Source of the DNA: Oscillospiraceae bacterium
Lineage (GTDB): Bacteria > Bacillota > Clostridia > Oscillospirales > CAG-272
Direction of reading: 5' to 3'
Assembly (NCBI GenBank): GCA_015064385.1
Contig: SVSI01000002.1
Span: 1 to 64,000, forward strand
DNA: 64,000 nt
Made by a program: the position numbers and the translations under genes. The notes under the pieces were generated by a model that saw only the letters and a program-made list of their open reading frames with translations, was not told the origin of the DNA and made no database searches. The first letter of the stretch is position 1. Each line of letters begins with the position of its first letter. Shown here one piece after another: positions 1-10,826 of the stretch.

Positions 1-3000
1 CGTCAATTCTTGCTGCACCATGTTTGAAACTATCTCTCGTAATCAGCACATCTACGCCTAAATCTCTGCAACGGAGATGGGTTTTAGTAGGTGTGTTTTT
101 TGGATGCTTTACGCTCGCTGCAATATCACGCATATCCTTACCAAACAGAATTGTATCCTTTTGATATTTGCTTATTTCGGCTTCGGGCAGTTTCGGAAGC
201 GTTTTAACTTCCATATCGTCTTTACTTGTGAGAGTTTCATAAGAGTATCGGTCAGAGTCATTGCTATGGGATACACGGGCAGAAAGCACAACATCTTCCC
301 CAAACTCCTTATCAAGGCGGTCATACACCTCTTGAGGGAACTTGTAGTTCTGCTTTTTGTCCACCTCTGCCTTGAGGAGTTCAGCCATAAAGCCATCGTC
401 AAGGCTGGGAGTAATCTCACCCTGCGGAAGGATGTTTCCTTCATGGTCGAACATCTTGAAGTCAACGAGGAGCTTGTGGTAGCCTTCACGATAGGTAAAG
501 TCATATGATCCGTACTCGTCCGTATACACACCGTCTGCCTTGTACTCCTTGTTTAAGAACTCGGAGTAACGAGGTATTTTTTTCTGTGCTTTGCATACCT
601 TGAGGAAGGCATCAACGAATTCTACCTTGTTGGTAGGATGGTACTTGTTGATTACCTCGGTGTAGATATTGACATTGTGCTTGGAAGCCTTATCCGTGTC
701 AATATCCTTTTCGTGCTGAGACTCCTTGTAGTTCACCCACTCCGCAAGACCGAGAGCCTTGCAGATATCCTTCGACTTATTGGTGTGGAATGGGATGATG
801 TAATCCACGAATTCATCAAGCATGGCAATCCCGATCTGCGTGGGATTGATGCCTATGAGGATATTACCTACGTTAGGATTGTCTCGCTCGTTGATAAAGT
901 TCTCATCGTTAATGTCGATACCCTCGGTGGTGTCATAATCAAGCACTTGCTTGCCATTCACCGTCTTCAAACCCGTCTGCCCCTTGGGAATGAGGGAGCG
1001 GTTGAGCTTGATACCCGTGTCACGGACAAGTCTTGCAAAGGAAGGAATCTTGGTGTATCCCTGAATCTTTACACCCTTTGCCGAGCAGTCGAGGATGACC
1101 TGCACCAAGTCGAGCAGATGCATTACCTCAAAGTCGGAGAAGGAGAAGATGCGGAGACCTCCGTTGTTATTGACAGACTTGACCTTTGCATCCGACCATC
1201 CAAGAATCTGTCTGTTGTACTCGGCTCTGCCTTCGATGAGTCTTCCTGCCTGCTGACCTCTTGAGTTGTTGTATCGGTTGAATCCCATCGCAATGGTGGG
1301 ATGATTCTTTTCAAGGAGCTTGAAGCCTTCGTAGGTGGTAAGGTCATACTGAGTCGGTATGTACTTGTCGGTGGCAAGTATAGCCGATCCCTGCTTGAGT
1401 CCGTACTGCTTGGCAAGTGCCTTGGTAACAGTAAGAGTGACCTTATTGCCCGATGCGTTGGTCTTCTGCAACGGCTTGCCCGTCTCTACGGCTTCCTTCC
1501 ACATACCGATGTAGGTGTCGGCAATCTCTCCGAGAAGCTGTCTTCTGTCCTCTACGAAACAAGCACCGCAAGCTACTGTGATGCCCTGATCCTTGAGGAT
1601 GCTTCGCATAGCAGCCACATCGCTTGCCGTGAAGAGTTTGTCGGGGTACTTCTTCTGAAGCATATCGAACATCGAAGTGAATTCCGTTCTCTTCGGGCAA
1701 AGGTTGGAAAGGTCAACTGTACCCTGCGGATAGTCGGAGTTCTTTTTTATTGCCTCGTATCTGTCATCCGCCTCAAAGTCGAGGAATTCGGGATTATTCA
1801 TAACGATATTGGCTATCGCAATTTCGGAGTTGACCCACTTTCTTGCATCCTCGATGCTTCTGCCTGTTCCTTTTGCTACGAGTTGAGCAATGGCTTCGGT
1901 GTTGAAGTTATTCTTGCCAACTGTGACAAGGTCGATAACATTTCCGAGAGCATCCTTTCGCCCGGTGGAGTAGCGCAGAGAATAAACGGATTGAGTCTCC
2001 TCGTCAAATCCTATGCCACTTTCAGCAAGGGTCTGTTGCTCTGTGAGGGATATGGTGCGGAAGTTCTCACTCGCTTCGACAATACCTTCGGCGAAGAGTG
2101 TCTCAAACTGCTCGATAACATCCTTCATCTCGGACACCATCCGTCCCTCCACAGTGTCAGGATTGATACCGCTGTATGCGTTGATGGTCTTTTTGAGAAG
2201 GTCTACAAGGTCAGAGAAGAATTCCTTTATCTTGTTCCAAAGTCCCTCGTCTCTGCGTTTGATTTCGGCAAGCGACTCCATAACATTTCCCGATGTGAGC
2301 ATCGTCTCCATAGAGTCGGCTACGAACTCCTCAAAGGCAAGGTCATAGGTGACGTTCTTTCTGCCGTTTGCCTCCATAATCTCCATCTGTTTTCTGACGA
2401 GTTCGTCTACCGGCTTACCCTTCTTGCCGTACTGCTCTACGAGGAAGTCGGCAAGCACCTTAAACTTGGCAGGAGACCAAGCCTTAATGAAGTGGGTAAG
2501 CTCGTGGGCAACGGTGAAGAGCATCGTTCCGTTTCCGAGGTCGCCTGCATTGAGGTCGATGTGGATTGCTCCCGTTTTTTTGTCATACCAACCATTGGGA
2601 GCTTTATGTTCCTTGCCGTCTGCGGTCTTGAATACTCTCTCGCCATTTTTATTTGTGTAAGAAGCATATACATAGAAGTCAATGCCGAACGCCTTGGATA
2701 ACATCTCCATCGTCTTGAGACCGACCTTCTGTTGCTCCTTGAGGTTCTCCTCGTTAATGCTTTCGGCATCCCCTTCAAAGTGGACATTACCCTTGCCCTT
2801 AGTGGTCATTGCATTTTTTGCATTACCCACCGAGCCTTTCTCGGTAATCGTCGCCTGCTTTGCCTTCACTTCAGCCTCAGCAGCATTTCTTCCGTGGTGG
2901 AAAGCGACCTGTCTCTGATCTATGGTAAGGTCAAGATTCTCAAGACCTCTCGCATAGTTTATTTTTCCGTACTGATACGCAAGAGGAATGTCGGCAAAAT

Positions 3001-3688
3001 AGGTCTGAGCCGATACGCCGTCAGTCGCCTTGAAATTCTTGATAAGAGCCGTTGCGGTCTGAGGAGTAATGTCACCCATACGAGTTACCATTTCGTACAG
3101 AAGAGACTCGTCGTAGTTGGAAAATGCTACGTCGGTTGCATCTACTACCTCTCCATTTTCAAGACGAAGCGTAACCTCTCCATTCTCAACAGACTCAACA
3201 CCGCTTATTGCAACGTCTTCGCCCGTTGAGATACGCTTCAGCTTGCCATCGTCAGCGACCTCATATTTGCCCTGTATTGCATTTTCTTCCGTGGTGGCAC
3301 TCTCACTTGCCTCAAGAGTTTTCGCTCCGTCCGCAACAGCATTTGTTGTGTCCGTAGCGACTGTAGTCGATTCACCCTTTTTACCCTTGCTCAAATCCGA
3401 TGCAAGCTCATTAAATCCCTTCGTTCTCTGATTGACAGTAGAGTTCGGATTGATTATAACGTCTCGGATCGTACGAGCTATGATGGGATTCGCCTCAAGT
3501 GCCATACGCTGTATCGGATTGAGTTCTGCACCTTCGACTACAGCCTCAAGTGCCGATGCGATGGAGTTGGCGTGTTCGGTGGCAATACCTTTTCTCTCAA
3601 GAGACTTTACAATTTCAGAAGTATTCTGTGTAGTAAGCGTTGCGTTTACTCCATAGCAACGACTCTGTTGACCACGTCTACAGTGAGC
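1..3688 (-). CDS. Giant phage polyvalent protein (zincin plus other domains), incomplete at both ends
   Basis: One frame stays open on the minus strand from 3688 to the window edge (about 1229 codons), by hand translation. There is no credible start: the first in-frame ATG is at 3505 and has no Shine-Dalgarno. A low-complexity linker is followed by a zincin-like metalloprotease domain: HELTH (2492-2506) and a downstream EEFVADSME that supplies a glutamate. Further on lies a domain with CGACF (near 1559-1570), RIFSFSDFE and GYTKIP (about 1040-1150); the order loosely recalls phage GP88-like proteins, but this is a guess. The end reads DVLITRDSFKHG, reminiscent of C-terminal domains of phage polyvalent proteins. 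Such proteins are large multi-domain products thought to be injected with the DNA and to act against the host. Here the 5' end is fused out of frame to a truncated capsid gene, so it may not be translated. Confidence 0.72.
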
Positions 3689-4212
3689 TTACAAGTAGCA
3701 TCGAGAGCCTCACGGGAGTCAACAGCAGTTCCGTCTGCCTTAGGGCAGTAGAATACGTTCGTACCGCTCTGCATGATGTTACGGGTGATGGTATCGAGGG
3801 TAAGACCTGCCTGTCTTCCAAGAATCTTGGTAGCCTCAACGATGGTGTTGTCGATAGAGGTGAGTTCAAGAACGTCGGACTGTACGATGTAGTCGCCGTA
3901 CTGAGCAACCTCAGCCTCGATAGCAGTTACGGAGAGCTTCTTGCCGTCAGGAGTTACGCCCTCAGTGATGGGAGTAAGAGCCTTAGGAAGCGAAGCGAAC
4001 TTACGGAACTCGATCTTCTTACCGCCATTCTTGGGAATGGGTCTCTTCTGAGCGAACTGATCGTGTACGAGGTTTGCCTGTGCCTCGTCGATAAGGGTCA
4101 TATCGTAGAAGGTCTTGTTTTCTACGGAGAGACCGCTATCGAGAGTTACGTTGGTGTTGAGTTCAGCAAAAAGCTGAAGGTTGATGTTGATAAGGTTTTT
4201 GATGGTGTTCAT
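3646..4212 (-). CDS. Major capsid protein, N4-gp56-like family, truncated after 188 residues
   Basis: The sequence has features I associate with N4-gp56-family capsid proteins of Clostridia phages: LVHDQFAQKRPIPKNGGK, IEFRKFASLPKALTPITEG, a QYGDYIVQSDVLELTSIDN stretch and AGLTLDTITRNIMQSGTNV. Family members are usually 300 residues or more. This one stops with VVAME at 3646-3648, where the family would continue, and the downstream sequence belongs to another protein in the -1 frame. The start at 4212 has a good AAAGGAG site. Residues 11-16 are NLQLFA, the same motif as in the scaffold and in the cleaved N-terminus of Firmicutes ribosomal protein L27, pointing to processing by the Prp protease encoded two genes upstream. 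The truncated protein is unlikely to build a capsid. Confidence 0.8.
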   Translation of the reverse strand: MNTIKNLININLQLFAELNTNVTLDSGLSVENKTFYDMTLIDEAQANLVHDQFAQKRPIPKNGGKKIEFRKFASLPKALTPITEGVTPDGKKLSVTAIEAEVAQYGDYIVQSDVLELTSIDNTIVEATKILGRQAGLTLDTITRNIMQSGTNVFYCPKADGTAVDSREALDATCKLTVDVVNRVVAME

Positions 4213-4263
4213 AATAATCTCCTTTTTGTAAATAATACTTTCGGGAGATCAAATCAGTTTGGT

Positions 4264-5223
4264 TTATGAGAACGTGATTTTTTCTCCCCTTGCGACCCTA
4301 CGCATTATTTCCGCACGGTCTGCTTTGGTGAGCTGTGACACATCGCTCTTGGTTACTGTTGCGCCCTGAGAGGAATTTCCGTTCTCGGCAGGTCTTGCTC
4401 CGCCTGCAATAATGTTATTGACATTCTTTTCCGTTACCGTCTTTGCCGTATACTGCATAGCGGCAGGAATAATCTCGTCCTTGTGGATTACTGCATAGGC
4501 TGTAGCAACATCTACGCCTGAGTTGAGGAGACGAAGGAACTGCGGATTTTTCGCCTCTGTATTGAGATCGAGCGAAGGATATGTGAGCTGTGCCTGTTTA
4601 GCCTGCTCCATCCAACGAGAATAGTCCTGAGCCGCCTTTTCTCTGCGACTCTGCTCGTTCATCTGTCTCTTGAGGTCTGCGTTCTCTCTCTCCATTTTGC
4701 GGATTTCCTTGAGCTGCTGAACCGTTATGCCTTTTTCGAGTGCTTCCTGCTCGTAGTAGGAGTCATCTTCTTCGATAGCTCTGACGAGAGCTTCCGAGTC
4801 GGATGCATCGACACCATACTTCTTCGCAAGCATCTCAAGCGTGGGAGTCAGTGCGTTGTACTTGTCAACGACTTCCTTTGAACCCTTGAGTCTCTTCTGA
4901 ACTGTGTCCTGTACACGAGCATCATAGAGGTCTTTATATTCCCCTTTGATGAGCTTTTCAAATTCGGCATTTCGGTCAGGTTGTGCTACCGACTCTGCGG
5001 TCTGCACGTTTGTCACCTCGGCGGCAGGTGTGTTATCCTCGGACTGAACGCCGTACTTTACGTCAGCGAGAGGATTTTTTGCGCCCTTTGTTGAGTTCGA
5101 CACGGCGACTGTCGATGTTACGCCCGTTGCTCCCCCTGCTCCTGTGCCACCGTCTCCGCCTCCTGCACCTTCTGCAAAAAGCTGAAGATTAAGAAGCATA
5201 GGGAAAAAGATTTTGTTTTCCAT
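4264..5223 (-). CDS. Phage capsid scaffolding protein with Prp cleavage motif
   Basis: A 319-residue acidic protein. After a Gly/Ala/Thr-rich N-terminal part it is strongly helical and charged in the middle (about 90-210, with the EIRKMERENADLKRQMNEQ segment predicting coiled coil), and has a Lys/Arg-rich C-terminal helix (RAEIMRRVARGEK). This is the usual build of siphophage scaffolds, and it sits directly before the capsid gene as expected. Residues 11-16 are NLQLFA followed by EGAGGG, matching the L27-type site where Prp cuts after the alanine. The start at 5223 has an AAAGGA site. Scaffolds organise capsid assembly and are removed later; the leader would be clipped by the neighbouring Prp. 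Confidence 0.78.
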   Translation of the reverse strand: MENKIFFPMLLNLQLFAEGAGGGDGGTGAGGATGVTSTVAVSNSTKGAKNPLADVKYGVQSEDNTPAAEVTNVQTAESVAQPDRNAEFEKLIKGEYKDLYDARVQDTVQKRLKGSKEVVDKYNALTPTLEMLAKKYGVDASDSEALVRAIEEDDSYYEQEALEKGITVQQLKEIRKMERENADLKRQMNEQSRREKAAQDYSRWMEQAKQAQLTYPSLDLNTEAKNPQFLRLLNSGVDVATAYAVIHKDEIIPAAMQYTAKTVTEKNVNNIIAGGARPAENGNSSQGATVTKSDVSQLTKADRAEIMRRVARGEKITFS

Positions 5224-5284
5224 ATAGGATTCCTTTCTGCTCTTAAGTGAGCGACTCTGTTGTATATTGATAAGGACTTATGCC

Positions 5285-5626
5285 CTAATCAAACATTTTG
5301 AGACCCACGAAATCGGGATAGTTGAAAGCGAGTAGTGAATATCCTACCTGCGCTACGAAATAGGTGTGCATCGCTTCGGCATAGATGTCATCGTCCTTTG
5401 CAACACACGATATGACCGCATCACCACTATCGAGTTTTACAGTCGGAGTCTCGGCGAAGTCTCCGTGGTTATCCATCGCCTTGACTATCTGTGCCACTGT
5501 GTAAGCGAGAATCGAAGCAGAGGCACATATAATGTCTTCGCCCGGTACTGCTTGCCCTGCGTGACCTTTGACTGACAGAGAGAGTTTTCTGCCCTCTCTG
5601 TCAGCTTCAAATACAACATTTATCAT
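5285..5626 (-). CDS. prp: Prp-type cysteine protease (ribosomal/phage protein processing)
   Basis: A 113-residue homologue of the YsxB/Prp family. It has VKGHAG with His22 and EDIICASASILAYT with Cys34, the same numbering as the catalytic pair of Staphylococcus aureus Prp. Prp removes the N-terminal extension of ribosomal protein L27, cutting after a NLQ-F-FA-like motif, and staphylococcal phages borrow it to process capsid and scaffold. In this prophage it is encoded by the element itself, between the portal remnant and the scaffold, and the next two gene products both start with NLQLFA. I therefore infer that it matures the phage head proteins. It starts at ATG 5626 behind GGGAGG. It appears intact. 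Confidence 0.85.
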   Translation of the reverse strand: MINVVFEADREGRKLSLSVKGHAGQAVPGEDIICASASILAYTVAQIVKAMDNHGDFAETPTVKLDSGDAVISCVAKDDDIYAEAMHTYFVAQVGYSLLAFNYPDFVGLKMFD

Positions 5627-5640
5627 CTGTCCGCACCTCC

Positions 5641-5901
5641 CTAAGTAGGATCGGTGGACTCAGCCACTCTCTGTCTTGCCTTTTTGGTATTGGATGCTTC
5701 TTTGGTCTCACTGCCTCCGAGAGCCTCGGTCTCTTCTACTTTCTGAGCAGGCGACTGTCCCGAAGAGCCGTCAATAGGAGCGACGGGTGCGCCACCACTG
5801 AACTGAGCCATTAACTGCTCGGCTATATTAGACCCTCTCGTCTGATCCACCATCTGAGCAAGCATTACCATCTGCTGTTGCATCTGCATGCTTCTCGGCA
5901 A
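5641..5901 (-). pseudogene. C-terminal remnant of phage portal protein (tentative)
   Basis: The open frame encodes a Gln/Met-rich helix (MQMQQQMVMLAQMVDQ), then a disordered acidic tail ending TKKARQRVAESTDPT. This is what the C-terminus of a portal protein often looks like, and it lies where a portal gene belongs, just upstream of Prp and scaffold. The only start is a TTG at 5901 without its own ribosome binding site, and the frame runs back into the small terminase fragment. I read it as the 3' end of a portal gene whose body was lost in a deletion. The portal assignment rests on position and composition only. Confidence 0.45.
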
Positions 5902-5959
5902 GCTTCCGATAACTGATGCCGCCTGCGATGTACTCTTGCTTTATTTTCTTCCAATCCAC
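5828..5959 (-). pseudogene. N-terminal remnant of small terminase subunit (TerS)
   Basis: A GTG at 5959 behind a strong AGGAGGGAGG site opens a 43-codon frame beginning VDWKKIKQEYIAGGISYRKL and continuing AEKH, the typical helix-turn-helix opening of small terminase subunits. After AEKH the sequence (ADATADGNACSDGG) no longer resembles a terminase and stops at 5828; it is the portal remnant read in another frame. TerS recognises the packaging site on phage DNA. TerS beyond residue 24, the whole large terminase and most of the portal are absent here, so the element cannot package its own DNA as assembled. Confidence 0.7.
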
Positions 5960-8611: not shown

Positions 8612-8812
8612 CTACATTCTCCTTCCTACAAGTTCATCAAGGGATACGTTAAGAGCATCAGCGAGTGCGATAAGAGGCTTCATTCTCGGATACGAAACGT
8701 CACGCTCCCATTGAACTATGGTCATAAGGTGCAGACCTAACTTTCTCGCAAGTCTCTGTCTTGAATAGCCTCGCTCTTCCCGGACTTTGCGGATCGATTC
8801 GCCTATGGTCAT
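8612..8812 (-). CDS. XRE-type helix-turn-helix regulator, 66 aa
   Basis: A single HTH domain fills the protein: MTIGESIRKVREERGYSRQ, then RLARKLGLHLMTIVQWERD as the DNA-reading helix-turn-helix, and a final LADALNVSLDEL helix. It is a mid-operon regulator, not at the lysogeny switch. It overlaps the preceding gene (ATGA type) and is followed at once by the replisome organiser, so it may tune replication timing; that is inference. Confidence 0.8.
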   Translation of the reverse strand: MTIGESIRKVREERGYSRQRLARKLGLHLMTIVQWERDVSYPRMKPLIALADALNVSLDELVGRRM

Positions 8813-9180
8813 TTCGGATCGCTCCCTTCCGTCATTTCTTTTACGAGGTTGTCGATTTCAATAATAGCCACCGCTTCGGTATAATGCTCTCTGCCGTAGC
8901 CGAAAGATACATCACACTCAAATGCAGATTGCTTCAACCTCTCCGCAAACTCTTTGATTGCTTTTTCTTTTGTGACTCGGTATGCAAAATTAACTTCTGC
9001 CACCTTTGATGCTTTTAATGCCTTGATCTCTGCCCTCTGTCGGTTGATGAGGTCGAGTGCTTCCATTGCCATAAGCTGTGTGCAATCGTTGATTGGTTTG
9101 AAAAGAGGACACTCATCACCGATGCACTCATTTTCGTGCCAACAACACTCCAACGCCTTTATAATCTCGTTATCTGTCAT
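8809..9180 (-). CDS. Phage protein of unknown function with Cys motif and coiled coil
   Basis: 123 residues beginning MTDNEIIKALECCWHENECI with CxxDECPLF, then a helical LINRQRAEIKALKASK region. This layout (short cysteine cluster, then a 'LINRQxAEI' helix) recurs in small proteins of Clostridia phages of unknown role. It is coupled to both neighbours by 4-base overlaps. Confidence 0.7.
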   Translation of the reverse strand: MTDNEIIKALECCWHENECIGDECPLFKPINDCTQLMAMEALDLINRQRAEIKALKASKVAEVNFAYRVTKEKAIKEFAERLKQSAFECDVSFGYGREHYTEAVAIIEIDNLVKEMTEGSDPK

Positions 9181-9398
9181 TTCGCTCCGCCTCCTTCGTC
9201 AAACTGTAATGCTATTTGATTTATATCGTTTTTCATTCTTGGTTCGTACTTTTTCCCCGTTTCGACATCTCCGAGTTCCGACTCTACGAAATCCTCGCAA
9301 CTCGTAGGCTTATCAACACGCTTTAATACCTTGTTGTGGCAAGTGCAATAATACCAATCGCCAAGTATGCAATATGAACAATATCGGCAATATTTCAT
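9177..9398 (-). CDS. Small cysteine-rich phage protein, 73 aa
   Basis: I choose ATG 9398, which overlaps the upstream stop (ATGA); a longer frame to 9437 has no ribosome binding site. The N-terminus MKYCRYCSYCILGDWYYC holds six cysteines spaced like a zinc-binding knuckle, followed by CEDFVESEL and a charged tail. Function unknown. Confidence 0.65.
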   Translation of the reverse strand: MKYCRYCSYCILGDWYYCTCHNKVLKRVDKPTSCEDFVESELGDVETGKKYEPRMKNDINQIALQFDEGGGAK

Positions 9399-9929: not shown

Positions 9930-10826
9930 TTATCCTTTCGTCGGTCGGTAATCCTCAAATCTCGGACACGACCTCTGTATCTTGATGTTGTTGCACCATC
10001 TCTGAAGGTGTTTGATTTCCTTCGGTGCGTTTGGTTTATCATAGACCATCACATACGGATCGTATCCGAGGTCTCGCAGAGTGTATATCCTATGCAGATT
10101 TTCTTCCATCGTGCTTCCAAAATTCGTTAGGCAATAGACCGTCCCGTACCTTCCGTGAGGCTTGTGCTTTGCAAGTGCCTTGTATCGCTCAAAATACGGT
10201 CTCAAATCGTCTTTTGCATTATCCCAAGCAAAATGTATCTCCTTGACCTTAATTTGATTTATAAGGTCGATATTTCGCTCGTTGGTAAGCCTGATGTCGA
10301 GTCCCTGTGTGAAGTCCACATAAGCCTTGCTGTTTATGAGTTGCTGAAGCAGGTCGGGATGTTCACGGCAAGCAAGTATATTCGGATCGAGTAGCTTGAT
10401 GTTTTTCTGTCTGTGCCAAAATTCTTTAAGATCAGCCACTTTATATGACTTCCGCCCTTCCTTGCAAGCGACGATGCAGAATTCACATCCCCTCGGACAC
10501 CCTCTCGTAAGAAATCCGTATGCTGTGTTCTTTGTCAGTTCGGGATAGAGACTGTAATCGGGATATATATGCTCTACCTCGTCGGGAAGCTTATTGTCGA
10601 GTCCGTATCCGGTGCCGCCTTTTATAATCTTGTCGGCAAGAGGTATATAATCGATATCTGCCGAGTATGTCTCGTCAAACACCTTGCTTTGATATACGAT
10701 ATCGTAAGGCATTATCGGGAGACACCATTCAACGGTGTCTCCTTTTGCCTTGTGCCATGCGGATATCTTCATCAGAGCGAGATTCGGAAAGCCGTGTGAG
10801 TCAACGTCTATTAGTCCGATTCTCAT
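9930..10826 (-). CDS. Phage-encoded radical SAM protein
   Basis: 298 residues. The cluster motif is RGCPRGCEFC (about residues 108-117), the CxxxCxxC that binds a 4Fe-4S cluster. The first 100 residues (MRIGLIDVDSHGFPNLALMK) resemble the N-terminal part of B12-binding radical SAM proteins, but I see no cobalamin DxHxxG motif. The barrel continues through DFTQGLDIRL and IHFAWDNAKDDLRPYF. Such proteins do radical chemistry from S-adenosylmethionine; substrate unknown. It follows the cytosine methyltransferase by 37 bases, so both S-adenosylmethionine users are in one transcript. Modification of DNA bases or of an RNA is possible, but nothing here proves it. Confidence 0.85.
   Translation of the reverse strand: MRIGLIDVDSHGFPNLALMKISAWHKAKGDTVEWCLPIMPYDIVYQSKVFDETYSADIDYIPLADKIIKGGTGYGLDNKLPDEVEHIYPDYSLYPELTKNTAYGFLTRGCPRGCEFCIVACKEGRKSYKVADLKEFWHRQKNIKLLDPNILACREHPDLLQQLINSKAYVDFTQGLDIRLTNERNIDLINQIKVKEIHFAWDNAKDDLRPYFERYKALAKHKPHGRYGTVYCLTNFGSTMEENLHRIYTLRDLGYDPYVMVYDKPNAPKEIKHLQRWCNNIKIQRSCPRFEDYRPTKG

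Follow-up and report, generated by a model that had tools for sequence, protein, structure and literature searches.

Prp (YsxB, MEROPS C108, PF04327) is the protease that processes ribosomal protein L27 in Firmicutes. Virus-coded proteases that trim head proteins include HK97 gp4, T4 gp21, P2 gpO and the herpesvirus assemblin, and in two of them, P2 gpO and assemblin, the protease is fused to the scaffold. These classical enzymes are serine proteases with other folds, whereas the enzyme considered here is a cysteine protease of ribosome maturation. It is already known that host Prp cuts phage proteins and that phage copies of Prp are found in databases as peptidase or DUF464. In 80alpha and SaPI1 the scaffold and the capsid carry motif-bearing leaders as in our locus, but 80alpha borrows the enzyme of its host, whereas here it is encoded by the phage (PMC5744158). 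The siphophages phiFL3A, TP712, PLgT-1 and phiS13 share with our locus a phage Prp and, on the scaffold as well as the major head protein, the motif NLQxF[AS]; they differ in their unrelated siphophage capsids and in a minor head gene lying in between. This combination was seen in siphophages of Enterococcus (phiFL3A, sites NLQFFA and NLQIFA), Lactococcus (TP712, NLQRFA and NLQRFS) and Oenococcus (phiS13, NLQRFA on both proteins), where Prp is annotated merely as peptidase, ribosomal protein, DUF464 or unknown. Three "phage" records with an L27-adjacent gene (MT837018, MT836103, MT838584) are bacterial DNA and were excluded. Besides, operon I of the gene transfer agent FpGTA (PMC12946183) belongs to the same terL-portal-Prp-scaffold-capsid module family and has LQxFA leaders, but in most genomes its Prp is fused to the scaffold, and the locus is compact (~10 kb) and domesticated.

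The locus analyzed here lies in a window of 64 kb, the whole stretch of DNA under study, whose minus strand carries prp, then the scaffold gene and then the capsid gene (5626 down to 3646), in the order given by the initial annotation (Table 1). Compared with cellular Prp, the phage protein has the same family, catalytic residues and predicted fold, and the LQxF'A site is carried by the proteins encoded next to it. It differs in the position of its gene, which lies between portal and scaffold and not between rplU and rpmA, and in its proposed substrates, which are phage proteins. Judging from sequence comparison, Prp (MEROPS C108) was very probably recruited as a head-maturation protease that trims the leaders of phage scaffold and capsid. 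The phage Prp would remove the N-terminal leaders (see Table 1 for their lengths) by cutting the F'A bond within LQxF'A, presumably during head assembly, and an enzyme of its own would presumably free the phage from the host Prp and its specificity. In the literature covered, which included few subscription journals, we found no account in which a Prp encoded by a phage acts in maturation and has cognate substrates.

Table 1. Features of the head module and its surroundings, with positions in the window.
Feature	Position	Strand	Remarks
Large open frame	2..3640	-	at least 1213 aa; comes after truncated capsid
N4-gp56 family major capsid protein, N-terminal 188 aa, truncated	3646..4212	-	TIGR04387, aligned positions 5-159 of 324
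Prp site NLQLF'A of capsid	4165..4182	-	residues 11-16; predicted leader 15 aa
Scaffold protein	4264..5223	-	319 aa, intact; phrog_13908, E 3e-88; directly before capsid, as in relatives
Prp site NLQLF'A of scaffold	5173..5190	-	residues 12-17; predicted leader 16 aa
Prp cysteine protease, phage	5285..5626	-	113 aa, intact; G21, H22, G29, D31 and C34 present
Portal gene, C-terminal remnant	5641..5766	-	67% identity to last 46 residues of L024 portal
TerS-like N-terminal remnant VDWKKIKQEYIAGGISYRKLAEKH	5890..5959	-	joined to portal remnant; frame reading

The identity of the phage protein as Prp rests on its profile, on invariant catalytic residues and on a confident predicted fold that matches S. 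aureus Prp. It scores 46.8 bits against Pfam PF04327, whose curated cut-off is 27, and residues His22 and Cys34, which had been pointed out before, are indeed kept and lie inside the PF04327 domain. Together with G21, G29 and D31 they are invariant across 68 phage Prps. The AF2 model (pLDDT 95.6) has its best fold match in S. aureus Prp (7JVS/7KLD, E 2.8e-7); the leading PDB matches are 7KLD/7JVS, in which S. aureus Prp is substrate-bound, as well as 2IDL and 2G0J. The host possesses a Prp of its own at C2, beside L27, while the phage gene is located at C20, and the two proteins are only 22% identical. In a tree, 15 cellular Prps fell on one side of a branch that excludes the window Prp, the branch having a support of only 80.

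Around the predicted cut site the scaffold reads MENKIFFPMLLNLQLF'AEG and the capsid MNTIKNLININLQLF'AEL. The initial annotation had placed NLQLFA within the first 16 residues of both proteins, which is correct for the capsid, whereas the site of the scaffold ends one residue beyond; moreover, it had expected cleavage after Ala, but Prp cuts between F and A and hence before Ala (PMC5744158). A degenerate search for NLQLFA in the whole genome of 1.83 Mb gave exactly two matches, the scaffold and the capsid site, and the reversed pattern used as a control gave none in the same genome. The proposed comparison with the host showed that its L27 does have a leader, ISLQFF'A, and a Prp gene next to it, but the L27 site is unlike the NLQLF'A of the prophage at P2 and P5.

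The prp, scaffold and capsid genes are present as described in the initial annotation, which overlooked that the prophage itself is damaged. Its capsid is cut at 188 aa. L024, a close relative, has a capsid of 328 aa, to which the window protein is 87% identical over residues 7-184 only; after residue 188 the sequence passes, in another reading frame, into the unrelated large protein. Stop-codon recoding was dropped as a cause of the short capsid, as the frame that follows encodes another, unrelated protein. TerL and most of the portal are absent within the 64-kb window. Because of the truncated capsid and these missing parts, the window prophage is, on its sequence and barring assembly errors at both junctions, defective. 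As the prophage is defective, its module in the window host is a remnant and will probably produce no heads. An IMG/VR contig (L006/L021) was rejected as independent backing for the truncated capsid and the junctions, since it starts at about base 1 of the window and thus comes from the same assembly. Searches of Pfam and PHROG with the large frame were without match, and its sole relative in IMG/VR is a contig of the same assembly. A protein resembling the TerS-like remnant stands immediately upstream of TerL in L017. The prophage also encodes a dUTPase, a Phage_rep_org_N protein, an SSB and a serine recombinase, and a radical SAM protein of phage lies in its replication region (9930-10826, minus strand; phrog_9298, E 1e-107).

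Capsid loci of related phages were gathered by alignment searches with the capsid and with the fusion described below. This yielded 272 loci, 207 after dereplication, and prp could be assessed in 181 of them. In 160 of these 181 loci prp was found just upstream of scaffold and capsid, so that the position of the gene beside the two head proteins, which the initial annotation had asked to be checked in related phages, is kept among relatives; the cassette is widespread and occurs in many gut phages. The remaining 21 loci were scored as prp-less; they include L121, L122 and L154, which were rejected as prp-less phages because prp occurs elsewhere on their contigs. With a strict motif defined as [LIM]Q[^P][FLM][AGST], scaffold and capsid both carried the motif in 118 of the 160 prp-bearing loci, the capsid alone in 17, the scaffold alone in 4 and neither protein in 15, while no scaffold was found in 6. 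At least 139 of the capsids (87%) bear the strict motif, against a background of 21 matches in 1338 sixty-residue windows elsewhere in those same proteins. L106, a phage with prp, also encodes a probable tail protein (8692-9216) with an N-terminal GLQLFA, which suggests a third substrate.

The relation between the two leaders was analyzed in 119 scaffold-capsid pairs with prp and the motif on both proteins. Here 4.19 of 6 scored positions agreed, compared with 3.40 (sd 0.06) in shuffled pairs, a matching which owes part to shared ancestry. Moreover, the leader of the capsid was closer to the scaffold of its own phage than to that of the nearest relative in 49 versus 27 cases (p=0.015). Prp-bearing relatives that lack the motif had been named beforehand as a finding that would count against the proposal. 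Such loci do exist, namely the 15 mentioned above in which neither protein has the canonical motif, but in at least 8 of them scaffold and capsid have an alternative leader in common, which stands beside a divergent Prp. Examples are SLYLL[DE]GE in L223, LHLH[ML]FDG in L266 (Gallibacter intestinalis DSM 108706), HT[QH]MFD in L017, LDL[RS]IFD in L279 and MNL[SR]MF[AE] in L163. Next to these divergent Prps the scaffold and capsid leaders have shifted in concert, and the two motifs covary within a phage. In L375 the Prp is very divergent and has a long loop, GHAVSDEVLNGCGCDETDISRADSDSVCAA; it adjoins a capsid with the start MKKFSLKLFGAGD.

In 15 contigs prp and the scaffold gene form a single frame, and the joint carries [MVI][DNE]LQ[LM]F[AG]. 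PF04327 had matches in 30 of 31 Faecalibacterium genomes, mostly in frames of at least 310 aa. In all 12 Faecalibacterium loci that were read, the match is followed by a capsid whose leader has LQxFA, and in 2 of these loci prp and scaffold are separate genes. Eight Faecalibacterium genomes have the locus in common, with flanking genes shared in most. Cellular Prp is absent from the sampled Faecalibacterium genomes and the L27 leader is absent where checked; the phage-derived copy is the sole Prp in F. prausnitzii APC923/51-1 and in Faecalibacterium sp. I4-1-79, whose genome is complete. Strain, gene content and gene order lead us to infer that this locus corresponds to operon FpGTA I, published by Borodovich et al. 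2026. These authors included strain APC923/51-1 in their study and reported that FpGTA particles contain the capsid and portal proteins of operon I; a protease is nowhere mentioned in the main text (PMC12946183). The window prophage is not of the FpGTA type, as it lacks TerL and most of the portal and has replication genes as well as a serine recombinase. As the site lies at the joint of Prp and scaffold, the fused enzyme of Faecalibacterium would cut itself free there. In the AF2 model of the fusion the Prp part folds and the cut site falls between the two domains, where the confidence of the model is low; the fused frame also has an internal ATG before the site, a possible alternative source of free scaffold. 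We consider it reasonably probable, with less assurance than for the recruitment of Prp as such, that phages made the ribosome-maturation protease their own head-maturation protease with coevolving leaders and that in Faecalibacterium a self-cleaving Prp-scaffold fusion processes the FpGTA capsid. Values of dN/dS in Faecalibacterium were 0.04-0.09 for the capsid and 0.20-0.27 for Prp-scaffold. The compact phage-head locus with the fused Prp-scaffold was seen in nearly all Faecalibacterium genomes searched (L420-L447) and is under purifying selection.

The initial annotation had regarded enzyme and substrates as one phage cassette, which agrees with the order conserved in many phages, the covarying motifs and the Prp-scaffold fusions. 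Its further proposal that the phage enzyme acts on the phage proteins is, by comparison, the most likely reading, considering the covarying motifs and the prp-bearing prophages in hosts devoid of Prp. Twelve sampled prophages of this kind reside in hosts whose L27 starts with MA[HS]KKG, without a leader and without Prp beside L27, the absence of Prp being judged mostly on draft genomes; in 9 of the 12, one protein or both retain the canonical motif. The counts for hosts without Prp and phages with prp (12:0 versus 22:7) did not differ significantly (Fisher p=0.085). These prophages speak against a scenario in which the host Prp cuts the phage proteins, as in 80alpha, and the phage copy is redundant or otherwise employed. 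The Prp beside L27 in the window host fits such a scenario, and so do the prp-less prophages L192, L238 and L250, which keep the motif in Prp-bearing hosts: the NIQLFA of L238 and L250 equals the NIQLF'A of their host L27, and the LQFFA of L192 equals the LQFF'A of its host. However, while all three prp-less prophages checked track the L27 motif of the host, prophages that carry prp frequently have another motif, and in Faecalibacterium the only Prp is phage-derived, so that we regard a purely host-borne cleavage as improbable. A general preference of prp-less prophages for an aromatic, host-L27-like P2 (Fisher p=1e-4) was not supported by phylogenetically independent pairs and was dropped; only the three individual host-phage matches were retained. 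The reverse idea, that the phage Prp targets host L27 by ribosome alteration or enzyme competition and that the motifs on the phage proteins are secondary, is highly improbable, even though L27 is the best-known substrate of Prp and carries the above leader in the window host. The gene sits in the head module with the portal on one side and the scaffold on the other, the L27 site of the window host and the phage sites have different residues at P2 and P5, the Faecalibacterium Prp is joined to the scaffold, and the 12 hosts offer no L27 leader. The earlier suggestion that the phage Prp could cut or compete for host L27 was thus not supported, and host shutoff via L27 was rejected as the main function because of these 12 sampled prophages.

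More weight, while still unlikely, has the notion that the leader serves above all as a tag for folding or binding, a handle for a chaperone, and that binding of Prp coordinates assembly with the cut being incidental. For 80alpha, whose capsid and scaffold are cut by the host Prp, it was described that uncleavable forms are still viable, so that cleavage may matter little, and that the phage needs the N-terminus of the scaffold but not its cleavage (PMC5744158). A chaperone role has also been proposed for Prp (PMC9405229). Nevertheless, H22 and C34 are invariant in the 68 phage Prps, more than selection acting only on binding would demand. In addition, L201 and L208 have neither prp nor the leaders of scaffold and capsid; their capsid begins with M-ANHVN right after the ribosome-binding site, which is the cut position and the mature end predicted for relatives with LQLF'ANHVN. 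Both points favour trimming by Prp over a mere tag.

If phage Prp does act as a maturation protease, a cysteine protease of ribosome biogenesis joins the known head-maturation enzymes of phages, and phage genes labelled peptidase, DUF464 or ribosomal protein obtain a likely function. For FpGTA, a DNA-packaging particle described recently from an abundant commensal of the human gut, it would further predict a processing step that has so far been overlooked. Prp-less prophages that copy the L27 motif of the host, compared with those that carry prp, would represent a natural system for the coevolution of a protease and its substrates. As Prp is an antibiotic target, phage-borne variants with other specificities are relevant as well.

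Apart from the phages, the L27 leader and the prp linked to rplU-rpmA were lost together in several lineages of Clostridia. This joint loss was seen in L384, L386, L387 and L380 as well as in the hosts of L206, L216, L218, L221, L224, L231, L257 and L258. A prp-bearing prophage contig was further found in a Treponema MAG (L226) that has a cellular Prp and lacks the L27 leader, a case in which contamination is possible.
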